Assembly: GCF_014873535.1 (NCBI RefSeq)
Contig: NZ_JADBEF010000001.1
Coordinates: 5,704,001 to 5,768,000, forward strand
Length of the DNA stretch: 64,000 nucleotides
Direction of reading: 5' to 3'
Source of the DNA: Nonomuraea africana
GTDB lineage: Bacteria; Actinomycetota; Actinomycetes; Streptosporangiales; Streptosporangiaceae
The position numbers and the translations under genes are program-made. Each line of letters opens with the position of its first letter. Within the stretch, counting starts at the first letter, position 1. Positions 1 through 58,007 of this stretch are shown piece by piece. The notes below the pieces were generated by a model that saw nothing but the letters and a program-made list of their open reading frames with translations, was not told the origin of the DNA and made no database searches.

Positions 1-1270
1 GGCAGGCCTGGACCAGCGTCGCCAGCGCCACGCCTGGATCGGCCTGCTTCCACGGCCGCTCGCGCTCGATGTAGCGGTTGGCCTCCTCCACGATCGACCA
101 CACCGCCGAGGCCGCCGTGCGGAAGTCGAACTCCTCCAGCGCCCGGTGGACCCGCTCCTCGACGTCGGGAACGAGCGGCTCGGTCGGCACGTCGGGCACC
201 TGGCCGTCGCGGAACCTGTGGACCATGGTGACGACCCGCTTCACCAGGTTGCCGACGCCGTTGGCCAGGTCCTCGTCGTACCTGGCCGCCAGCCGTACCT
301 CGGTGAAGTCGGCGTCGCCGACGCGCGGCACCTCGCGCAGCAGCCACCACCGCACCGCGTCGCCACCGTAGCGTCCGGCCAGCTCCACCGGATCGACGGC
401 GGAGCCCGAGGACTTGGAGATCTTGCGACCCTCGACGGTCAGGTAGTCGTGGACGTAGATCTCGGTGGGCAGCGGCTCACCCGCCGACAGCAGCATCGCC
501 GGCCAGTAGACGGCGTGGAAGCGGATCACGCCCTTGCCGACCAGGTGGATCTTCCGGCCCCGCGCCCACCAGCGCTCGTAGTCGTCCAGGGCGGTGACGT
601 AGTTGGCCAGCGCGTCCCACCAGACGTAGACGACCTGCGAGGGGTCGTCCGGCACGGGGATGCCCCAGCCCCTGGCCCGCTCCTGCGAGCGGGAGACGCT
701 GATGTCCTCGAGCCCCGCCTCGATGAAGGCCAGCACCTCGTTCCTGCGGGCGGCGGGCTCGATGCGCAGGCGACCGCCGGCGATGAGCTCCCTGAGCTGG
801 TCCTGGTAGCGGGAGAGGCGGAAGAACCAGTTCTTCTCCTCGACCACCTGGAGCGGGCCGCCGTGCTCGGGACAGCCGTCGCCGGTGGCGAACTGCTCGC
901 AGCCCACGCAGTACAGGCCCGCGTAGTGCCGCTGGTAGACGTCGTGGGCGGTGGCCCGCCACAGCCGCTCGACGCCCCGCCGGTGCGCCGGGTCGCGGCT
1001 GGTGCGGACGAAGGAGTCGAAGGAGAGCGCCAGCGGCCCGCGCAGGTCTTCGAAGGCCCTGGCATTGCGGTCGACGAACTCCTGGACCGGCACGCCGGCC
1101 GCCTGCGCGGCCAGCACGTTCTTCAGCGAGTTGTCGTCGGTGCCGGTCTGGAAGCGTACGGGCTCGCGCCTGCGGTAGTGCCTGGCCAGCACGTCGGCCT
1201 GGACGATCTCCAACGCGAACCCCAGGTGGGGACGGGCGTTGACGTAGGGGATGGTGGTCGTGATGTACAT
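1..1270 (-). CDS. metG: Methionyl-tRNA synthetase, C-terminus beyond window edge
   Basis: Class I synthetase that charges tRNA-Met with methionine in the cytoplasm. The start is the ATG at 1270, preceded by a GGAGG site; about 423 codons lie in the window and the gene runs off the left edge. Visible motifs are the HIGH-type signature as HLGF (residues 15-18), a Zn knuckle with CVGC followed by CPEH, and the KMSKS loop as KISKS (residues 283-287). The nucleotide-binding region reads TGTDDNSLKN instead of the common TGTDEHG, so this may be a divergent or second MetRS type rather than the standard actinobacterial enzyme; that is an inference from remembered family sequences. A Met-rich leader ORF and hairpins lie directly upstream. 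Confidence 0.93.
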   Translation of the reverse strand, partial: MYITTTIPYVNARPHLGFALEIVQADVLARHYRRREPVRFQTGTDDNSLKNVLAAQAAGVPVQEFVDRNARAFEDLRGPLALSFDSFVRTSRDPAHRRGVERLWRATAHDVYQRHYAGLYCVGCEQFATGDGCPEHGGPLQVVEEKNWFFRLSRYQDQLRELIAGGRLRIEPAARRNEVLAFIEAGLEDISVSRSQERARGWGIPVPDDPSQVVYVWWDALANYVTALDDYERWWARGRKIHLVGKGVIRFHAVYWPAMLLSAGEPLPTEIYVHDYLTVEGRKISKSSGSAVDPVELAGRYGGDAVRWWLLREVPRVGDADFTEVRLAARYDEDLANGVGNLVKRVVTMVHRFRDGQVPDVPTEPLVPDVEERVHRALEEFDFRTAASAVWSIVEEANRYIERERPWKQADPGVALATLVQAC

Positions 1271-1287
1271 CGGGAACCTCCGGAAAA

Positions 1288-1361
1288 GGGCCCCGGACAT
1301 GCGAAGAGGCCCCGGATGAGCAGGGCCTCGGCGAGAAGACGTCAGCGAGCCCCTAGGGGGC
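1288..1361 (-). promoter_or_regulatory. Putative metG attenuator hairpins
   Basis: Reading the minus strand after the leader peptide, three elements can pair. A GCCCC/GGGGC hairpin (1349-1361) covers the leader stop. A 7-bp GAGGCCC/GGGCCTC stem (1306-1329) has a 10-base loop. A GGGGCCC block lies at 1288-1294, near the metG ribosome site. The leader GGCCCC segment could pair alternatively with either downstream GGGGCC block, so the structures can exclude each other. No U-tract follows the 7-bp stem, so control could act on translation or Rho-dependent termination rather than intrinsic termination. Confidence 0.45.
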
Positions 1362-1394
1362 CATCATTCGCCGCGTCGTCATGCCGCTCATCAT
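1353..1394 (-). CDS. Methionine-rich leader peptide upstream of metG
   Basis: A 13-codon ORF reads MMSGMTTRRMMAP and then TAG. Five of its 13 residues are Met, including two Met-Met pairs. It ends about 80 bases before the metG start on the same strand. An in-frame GTG two codons upstream, with a GAGAAG eight bases before it, could also be the start. The arrangement matches ribosome-stalling attenuators, in which a run of codons for the cognate amino acid senses charged tRNA. The peptide is seen directly; the regulatory role is inferred. Confidence 0.6.
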   Translation of the reverse strand: MMSGMTTRRMMAP

Positions 1395-1445
1395 AGCCAC
1401 GATGTCAGCTTCTCGGCCGTAAACGACTGAGCTTGCAGCTCCTCG

Positions 1446-1464
1446 CCGTCGATGGCATCGACGG
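1446..1464. repeat. Hairpin at right end of the TnpB element
   Basis: A 9-bp perfect inverted repeat (CCGTCGATG / CATCGACGG, one-base centre) lies 12 bases beyond the tnpB stop. Subterminal hairpins of this kind mark ends of IS605-family elements and form part of the guide RNA scaffold. The exact element boundary cannot be set from this sequence alone. Confidence 0.5.
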
Positions 1465-1475
1465 TCTGGTCCGCG

Positions 1476-2615
1476 TCAGGCAGCGTGACTCACTGCCCAG
1501 CCCGCTACACCGCGCGCGGCGATGTTACGGGCTGCGTTGACGTCGGCATGCTCAGCGAAACCGCACGACGTACAGGAGAAGACGGCCTGGTCTGGCCGGT
1601 TGGCCCGATCGGTATGCCCGCAGGCCCAGCATTGCTGGCTGGTGTAGGCCGGATCGACATGGATAAGAGCGATCCCGGCCCGTCGGGCCTTGTAGGCGAT
1701 GAAGCCGCCCAGTTGGGCGAAGCTCCAAGAGTGCAGCGTGACCCGCTGGGGCTTGCGGAGCCGTACCCGCTCGCGGATGCCCTGGAGGTCTTCCAGAGCG
1801 ATCCCGCGTCCGGTGCGTTCTGCCTCGGTCACGATGCGTTTGGCGATCACATGGTTGGTGTTGGCGGCGAACCGGGCCTCGGCCCGGCGGCGTTTCTTCA
1901 GCAGGCGTTTGGCGGATTTGGTGCGCTTGGCCTGCAACCGGCGGCGCAGCTCCCGCTGTCGGCGGCGGACCGCATTCAGCCCCTTTCCCGAGTAGCGGTT
2001 CCCGTCGCTGGTGGTAGCGATATTGGCGATGCCCAGATCCACACCCAGGAACCCGTTCGGGATCACTACCGGCCTGTCCGGGATCTCACAGGTGGCGATC
2101 AGGAACCACATGCCGTCCCGCAACACCAAGTCCGACTCGCCTTTGCGGTGCGTGGCCAGCATCGCCAGCTGCCGCTCTGAGCAGGTGAACGCGATACCGC
2201 GCAGCCGCCCGGCGATCGTCCAGATCGACACCGTGCGGGCGTGGGGTTGCCAGGACAGGCAGCGATCGTCGTACGGCTGGGCCGCGTGCGGGCGGAAGGT
2301 GATCGGTTTGCTCTCGGCGCGGGTCCGCCGTCGCGATCCTGGCGGCCCGAGATTGCCGGCCCGCAGGTTGGCCTTGAGCGTGGTGCAGGCGTCGGCGACC
2401 TTCTTGATCACGTGCTGGGCGGCCTGAGCGCCCAGACCACGCGCCTTCAACACCGTATAGGTGTGCTTGCGCAGGTCATACTCGCGGGTGACCCCGGTGG
2501 TGAACGCGGTCCGCGCGACGAGATCGGCGGCCTGGTTGCAGCCGCGCAGGGTCGCCTCCAGCGCCGCCGCCTGCTCAGGCGTTGGCAGGAGCTTCACCTG
2601 CACCACCAGTTTCAC
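1476..2615 (-). CDS. tnpB: TnpB (IS200/IS605/IS607-type OrfB), RNA-guided nuclease family
   Basis: This 379-residue protein belongs to the TnpB family, the transposon-encoded RuvC nucleases ancestral to Cas12. The start is taken as the GTG at 2615, which opens the conserved VKLLPTPEQ segment; a longer in-frame extension lacks family character. RuvC residues are visible as D193 in GVDLGIA, E275 in ALEDLQGI and D358 in EHADVNAARN. The zinc ribbon cysteines are C329, C332, C348 and C351. All are present, so the protein looks intact. No TnpA transposase lies nearby, making it a solitary element that would need help in trans. An omega RNA is expected at its 3' side (positions 1400-1480) but is not proven. 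Confidence 0.92.
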   Translation of the reverse strand: MKLVVQVKLLPTPEQAAALEATLRGCNQAADLVARTAFTTGVTREYDLRKHTYTVLKARGLGAQAAQHVIKKVADACTTLKANLRAGNLGPPGSRRRTRAESKPITFRPHAAQPYDDRCLSWQPHARTVSIWTIAGRLRGIAFTCSERQLAMLATHRKGESDLVLRDGMWFLIATCEIPDRPVVIPNGFLGVDLGIANIATTSDGNRYSGKGLNAVRRRQRELRRRLQAKRTKSAKRLLKKRRRAEARFAANTNHVIAKRIVTEAERTGRGIALEDLQGIRERVRLRKPQRVTLHSWSFAQLGGFIAYKARRAGIALIHVDPAYTSQQCWACGHTDRANRPDQAVFSCTSCGFAEHADVNAARNIAARGVAGWAVSHAA

Positions 2616-2631
2616 AATCGAACACACTATC

Positions 2632-2665
2632 GTTCGGTTCGTGATCACCGCGATGGGAACCGAAC
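2632..2665. repeat. Inverted repeat at the left end of the TnpB element
   Basis: GTTCGGTTC (2632-2640) and GAACCGAAC (2657-2665) form a perfect 9-bp inverted repeat 17 bases upstream of the tnpB GTG. It may be the left-end subterminal hairpin or an operator for tnpB. Confidence 0.4.
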
Positions 2666-2771
2666 CTTCAACTGGCGTGATTGACGGTTGACAGGTATCC
2701 GGGGGTGCCGGTTTCGGGGAGGTTTCGTTGGATTCCTCTGCGCACGAGCACGCCCTGTGACCCCACTCCCC

Positions 2772-57930: not shown

Positions 57931-58007
57931 GGTGGGTGTAGCTCAGTTGGCAGAGCGCCAGGTTGTGGTCCTGGATGTCGGGGGTTCAAGTCCCCTCACT
58001 CACCCCA
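57931..58007 (+). tRNA. tRNA-His (anticodon GTG)
   Basis: A full cloverleaf. The acceptor stem is GTGGGTG paired with CACTCAC, the extra G at -1 (57931) pairs with the discriminator C at 58004 as in tRNA-His, and the CCA end (58005-58007) is encoded. The anticodon stem is CCAGG/CCTGG with the loop holding GTG at 57965-57967. The T-arm is GGGGGTTCAAGTCCCCT. Its 3' end is the left boundary of the island. Confidence 0.97.
57993..58007 (+). repeat. attL-like end of the tRNA-His-linked island
   Basis: The 15-base CCCTCACTCACCCCA is the 3' end of tRNA-His. An identical copy lies at 61513-61527. Integrative elements commonly insert here and duplicate this end. The repeat is seen directly; its role as an attachment site is inferred. 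Confidence 0.6.

Follow-up and report, generated by a model that had tools for sequence, protein, structure and literature searches.

In the actinomycete Nonomuraea africana, the region upstream of an accessory gene for methionyl-tRNA synthetase (MetRS), metG, is likely to act as a ribosome-mediated attenuator, gauging charged elongator tRNA-Met and controlling this synthetase, a reading for which there are no expression data. The parts on which it rests are shown: a leader ORF, the spacing between promoter and start codon, conservation, the link to the gene, and compensatory change in the RNA. We consider exposure of the metG Shine-Dalgarno sequence (SD) a more probable output than a terminator, an inference from predicted folds, co-variation and the lack of terminator-like U-tracts in the genus. 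An initial annotation, made from the sequence alone, had proposed that a Met leader senses charged tRNA on behalf of metG, and conservation, geometry and folding support this proposal.

The leader ORF, its promoter and its conservation

The window, the whole 64,000-nucleotide stretch of DNA that was analysed, carries on its minus strand a Met-rich ORF of 13 codons with five ATG (ATGATGAGCGGCATGACGACGCGGCGAATGATGGCCCCCTAG, 1394-1353), and 82 nt separate its stop codon from the metG start codon (1270-1268). The initial annotation had described a 13-codon ORF with five Met codons ending about 80 bases before metG, and both statements hold as read. The start at 1394 failed, as comparative data move it to 1382. 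The first ATG (1394-1392) sits inside the hexamer TATGAT, and the third, at 1382, lies seven nucleotides behind that hexamer; a leader beginning there has 9 codons, with a start Met and a Met-Met pair. Comparative spacing makes 1382 very likely to be the true start, though no ribosome-profiling data exist. Among 159 distinct cores collected from relatives (see below), promoter and start are 6 or 7 nt apart in 158, and therefore the transcript should be leaderless; none of the 159 has an SD ahead of the leader start. From this spacing we infer that transcription probably begins at or next to A1382, for which there are no TSS data, and that the leader is probably translated from a leaderless transcript.

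Table 1. Features of the metG upstream region in the window
Feature	Position	Strand	Basis
tnpB of IS605/IS1341-type element, upstream of metG, same direction	1404-2700	-	right end 1404, between -35 and -10 of leader promoter
-10 promoter hexamer TATGAT of leader transcript	1390-1395	-	direct reading; TANNNT 6-7 nt ahead of start codon in 158/159 relatives
Leader ORF MTTRRMMAP-stop, leaderless (inferred); Met-Met codons 1367-1362; stop TAG 1355-1353	1353-1382	-	in-frame conservation in relatives
Protector hairpin, outer part: codons 1372-1368 pair with 1348-1344; Met codons in internal loop	1344-1372	-	MFE fold; compensatory changes
Inner protector helix: segment A 1361-1357 (GCCCC) with segment B 1353-1349 (GGGGC)	1349-1361	-	MFE fold
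Central hairpin C:D, GAGGCCCTG-ctcatc-CGGGGCCTC, near invariant	1306-1329	-	99.6% of cells paired in 35 sequences
Antisequestor (stalled-ribosome state): 1352-1347 with 1293-1288, enclosing C:D	1288-1352	-	predicted fold
Sequestor E:F: 1295-1285 with 1281-1271, hides metG SD GGAGG (1281-1277)	1271-1295	-	MFE fold; E/F co-variation
metG, accessory methionyl-tRNA synthetase, 461 aa in all; runs past left edge of window	1-1270	-	TIGR00398; full length from L001

Next to the window copy, comparison with further copies of the element in the genome places one end of a TnpB transposon (IS605/IS1341 type) at exactly 1404. This end lies eight bases upstream of the -10, and the -35 region is therefore now IS sequence. 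The IS thus splits the -10 from the original -35 region, a point against the model. The stretch read from the closest relative (G035, 94% identical protein) lacks an IS at this junction. By inference, the expected omegaRNA guide, formed by the first bases past the right end, would correspond to the metG promoter and leader start; the three RuvC acidic residues of TnpB look intact by eye. The only tRNA of the window is a tRNA-His (GTG) at 57932-58007 (+).

This type of metG is found in 38 of the 55 genomes of the genus Nonomuraea, and a covariance model matches the element in exactly the same 38 and in none of the other 17, its lone extra match being a weak second one (E = 0.006) in one of the 38. 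As the model was built from 35 of the 38 genus sequences, its absence elsewhere is the informative part. Searching the genus for an exact pattern of the leader core recovered only 4 of 55, being too strict on spacer length; the covariance model was used instead. The upstream regions of the genus share TANNNT, 6-7 nt, ATG-AC... and then an ORF of 9-14 codons of the type MT[T/I]xxVMMAP-stop, followed by a hairpin GAGGCCC...GGGGCCTC and then CGGGGCCCC ahead of the SD.

For wider sampling, we searched the order and the class and added genomes of named species. Leader regions were obtained from Actinomadura, Streptomyces, Streptacidiphilus, Kitasatospora, Micromonospora, Actinoplanes and Phytohabitans, as well as from Frankia, Nocardia, Nocardiopsis, Saccharothrix, Catenulispora and others. 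Alignment of actinomycete metG upstream regions, the check proposed with the initial annotation, thus finds leader and hairpins conserved in many genera. Outside Nonomuraea the peptides differ yet centre on Met codons, as in ..QVMMPRSRGR, ..QHRMMPRRRGC, MTQCTQPMMRPVRGPLRVR, MSTTRVTADAASRRMMMRMPSGLFRAS and MTRVYSTMMNRMMMSSGLSRVF, each followed directly by a stop. A leaderless ORF behind TANNNT with at least one internal Met is present in 172 of 187 regions upstream of this MetRS type, compared with 0.96% of dinucleotide shuffles, and Met-Met occurs in the leader in 136 of 187, compared with 0.03%. The 187 regions include near-duplicates, and 159 distinct cores remain. No Met leader was found in 15 regions upstream of the housekeeping metG (0/15).

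Within the 159 distinct cores, GTG serves as leader start codon in 21, and the stop codons are TGA (100), TAG (57) and TAA (2). Leader length ranges from 9 to 28 codons across clades, with only the Met codons shared, and the leader stop lies ~70-165 nt from metG. Depending on the clade, the C-run after Met-Met encodes Ala-Pro, Pro-Arg or Arg-Pro; since the same run is read in different frames, it is the RNA and not the peptide that is conserved there. At one locus (L020, G005:C196), unrelated sequence replaces the leader ORF up to the stop region, with the downstream hairpins and metG kept, possibly through an insertion or an assembly join.

Alternative RNA structures and ribosome position

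The claim that hairpins before metG can pair alternatively also held, with pairing that extends further than the initial annotation had placed it, from 1372 to 1271 (Table 1). Compensatory changes occur in 3 of 6 pairs of the protector hairpin, with GCGA/TCGC in the window compared with GGTGA/TCACC and GGAG/CTCC in relatives, and for the OFF structure as a whole, none of 500 shuffles was paired to as high a percentage as observed. In a second clade (Actinomadura/Streptomyces), too, C:D hardly varies. For the sequestor, we compared cognate strands with strands swapped between species: in 95 of 123 cases, binding was stronger for the cognate E:F pair than for the swapped one (Wilcoxon p = 3.7e-12, relatedness uncorrected). 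The same test found no co-variation for B:E (p = 0.68), a helix built from runs of G and of C that hardly vary. These covariation tests ignore relatedness among the sequences. RNAalifold consensus folds recover mainly the central hairpin, because the alternative structures compete. A TTTT at 1287-1284 was considered as a terminator tail and dropped, as most of it pairs with the SD, forming the anti-SD strand of E:F.

To model the ribosome, RNA up to 12 nt from the A-site codon was deleted and the remainder folded at equilibrium. In the window copy, opening the stretch from SD to start codon is predicted to cost 11.2 kcal/mol with no ribosome, 3.6 kcal/mol with the last Met of Met-Met in the A site, and 10.9 kcal/mol at the stop codon; with the ribosome edge at 1352, the antisequestor has a predicted pairing probability of 0.97. 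Across the Nonomuraea set, the predicted cost has its minimum, 4.6-4.9 kcal/mol, when either Met of Met-Met is in the A site, and reaches 9.5 with the ribosome five codons before that point and 8.6 with it two to three codons past it. When segment B was shuffled, the cost was 6.9 instead of 4.9, so part of the relief is lost. The second clade gives a curve of the same shape, with 8.7 kcal/mol at the Met codons versus 11.4 and 11.6; an SD that still costs 8.7 kcal/mol to open when the ribosome is stalled counts against the model in that clade. An SD hidden by default and freed on stalling is predicted, without experiment, for 28 of 36 Nonomuraea sequences (1 reversed), 53 of 77 in clade P (2 reversed) and 10 of 18 in clade R (none reversed). 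That ribosome position at the Met codons chooses between the alternative structures is a prediction of this equilibrium folding.

The mechanism that we favour would operate as follows. The transcript would begin at the AUG at 1382 or directly beside it; without a Shine-Dalgarno sequence, a ribosome would then read M-T-T-R-R-M-M-A-P. When Met-tRNA is ample, the ribosome would get to the stop codon and cover segment B, so that the E:F helix forms and conceals the metG SD. If the leader is not translated, B would be kept in the protector hairpin that holds the Met codons, and E:F would form again. When Met-tRNA is short, the ribosome would pause on Met-Met with its leading edge at about 1352, the protector hairpin would melt, and the freed B would pair with E across the constitutive C:D, thereby opening the SD and allowing metG to be translated. 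Stalling on uncharged tRNA, leader translation, translation as the main output and induction of MetRS are all inferred, although we regard them as probable. A further point stands against the model: Met shortage also lowers initiator fMet-tRNA, and leader translation would then drop.

The regulated synthetase and rival explanations

The metG product is a methionyl-tRNA synthetase by NCBIfam TIGR00398 (352.8 bits, cutoff 336). MetRS genes were collected per genome with Pfam PF09334, and a second, housekeeping MetRS is present in 20 of 23 genomes checked, which suggests that the regulated gene is mostly a spare. In two Frankia genomes among the 23, the leader-controlled MetRS is the sole MetRS, and in one further genome the sole MetRS is a related type without a leader. 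In the window's own genome, the housekeeping metG has no leader ahead of it. A related MetRS clade with 55-57% identity (L085, L087, L089) has no leader at all, and genome G161 hints that control might be lost when such a leader-free MetRS is the only enzyme. In Frankia (L116-L119, L121, L127-L129, L217, L219, L223, L224), leaders run to 25-28 codons, of which two to four are internal Met codons. In the genomes checked (G345, G392), these long leaders probably control the only MetRS, an inference made without expression data.

Within the metG type of the window (L001, L131-L142 and L145-L224; 103 distinct sequences), the HIGH motif is HxGF or HxGY in 57 of 103, and KMSKS reads KISKS in 87 of the 92 sequences where the motif was located. 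These changes could perhaps mark an inhibitor-tolerant active site, an inference from sequence alone. A bolder reading, which we put forward only as a possibility, is that the element is a widespread, undescribed Met-charging switch of actinomycetes, which would use a leaderless leader to govern translation initiation and would reserve a MetRS with altered motifs (KISKS, and HxGF/HxGY in about half) as an inducible standby against natural MetRS inhibitors.

Four other explanations could be considered. First, the region could be a classical transcription attenuator, in which the leader senses Met, C:D (or E:F) is an intrinsic terminator and B:C the antiterminator. This remains possible. Several points favour it: the GC hairpin C:D is strong (about -16 kcal/mol), T is about twice as frequent in the next 8 nt as in the background, five or more T follow C:D in 14 of 80 clade-P sequences (e.g. 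GGGGCCTCTTTTCTTTT), and the Streptomyces trpS and leuS attenuators are of terminator type (PMC1262725). Against it, only 1 of 38 sequences in the window's genus has five or more T behind C:D, the SD-hiding helix co-varies, and C:D is predicted in all ribosome states, with a probability of 0.01 for B:C in this set, though choices made during transcription are beyond the reach of equilibrium folding. The order-wide data were first read as a classical terminator attenuator (A:B, B:C antiterminator, C:D terminator), a reading demoted to a rival because C:D is never lost in folding and U-runs are absent in the window's genus. U-rich tails are present in some copies from the Actinomadura/Streptomyces clade, for which termination at C:D may still apply.

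Second, a protein or small molecule could bind a conserved, riboswitch-like RNA element, with the ORF incidental. The near-invariant C:D could be a binding site, but we consider this unlikely, as there is no Rfam match, and the promoter-to-start distance is fixed and Met codons stay in frame despite differing peptides and stops. Third, the nascent chain (..MMAP-stop, ..MMPR..) could act as an arrest peptide that stalls on free methionine, SAM or slow Pro-stop termination and not on uncharged tRNA. Several leaders do end Met-Met-X-Pro-stop, and such ends recall C-terminal Pro stalls. Yet the residues after Met-Met vary by clade (AP, PR, RP, from one C-run in different frames), and leaders of 9 to 28 codons share the Met codons alone, which leaves this sensor very improbable. 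Finally, that the leader merely boosts metG translation by ribosome re-initiation, without sensing, is hardly credible: such a role has been proposed generally for bacterial leader genes (PMC4833913), but the leader stop lies ~70-165 nt from metG, and the selection for Met codons and the hiding of the SD in a co-varying helix would go unexplained.

Relation to known systems

Ribosome-mediated attenuation at the Met codons, our preferred reading, can be set against known regulators. No T-box, SAM riboswitch or other Rfam family matched at the leader in the window or at 15 related loci. A T-box likewise senses charging of the cognate tRNA upstream of an aminoacyl-tRNA synthetase gene, but it does so by binding the uncharged tRNA itself, with no need for a leader ORF. 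A Met leader ahead of a MetRS, and with it a Met version of ribosome-mediated attenuation at MetRS, was not found described in the open-access literature searched (subscription papers lay outside the search). The initial annotation's statement that such regulation was not known is thus supported within that literature.

Two criteria for attenuation are met to different degrees. An upstream ORF with cognate codons, conserved in relatives, is present (172/187; Met-Met in 136), and mutually exclusive structures set by ribosome position are met by prediction only, together with compensatory changes. The classical trp/his-type criterion, a GC hairpin with a U-run ahead of the gene, is not met (1/38 in the genus, 14/80 in clade P).

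Several leader peptides at synthetase genes resemble the one described here. In the pheST attenuator of gamma-proteobacteria (named in PMC1262725), a synthetase operon is under cognate leader codons; that attenuator uses Phe codons and an intrinsic terminator. The predicted trpS and leuS attenuators of Streptomyces (Seliverstov et al., 2005, PMC1262725) resemble the metG element in having many cognate codons in a leader ORF, hairpins that compete and a synthetase as target, but have terminators with poly-U; the same study reported no conserved RNA structures upstream of methionine operons. RNA-seq of S. lividans TK24 identified the leaderless leader peptides leuL, trpL, alaL and thrL (for leuS, trpS, alaS and thrS) and metL upstream of metNIQ (PMC8079986). 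These are alike in their leaderless start behind a promoter, and one is Met-dependent, but metL has 29 aa, precedes a transporter operon and is unrelated in sequence; that list includes no Met leader ahead of a MetRS. Nearest in logic is a case of ribosome-mediated attenuation in Streptomyces, at the auxiliary tryptophanyl-tRNA synthetase gene (Vecchione and Sello, 2010, doi 10.1128/JB.00290-10; cited in PMC4787780): this too is a spare synthetase with a cognate-codon leader peptide in an actinomycete, but it senses Trp and not Met, and its attenuation is described as transcriptional, whereas SD exposure is favoured here.

If our reading is correct, methionine would become another amino acid that a leader peptide senses ahead of a synthetase gene, in an element that spans several orders of actinomycetes. 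The message would sense charging of the very amino acid that starts its own leader, fMet-tRNA starting it and Met-tRNA being measured inside. With a second MetRS as the usual target, the switch may show when a standby synthetase is needed, for example under inhibitors made by neighbours, an idea that parallels the Trp enzyme of Streptomyces.
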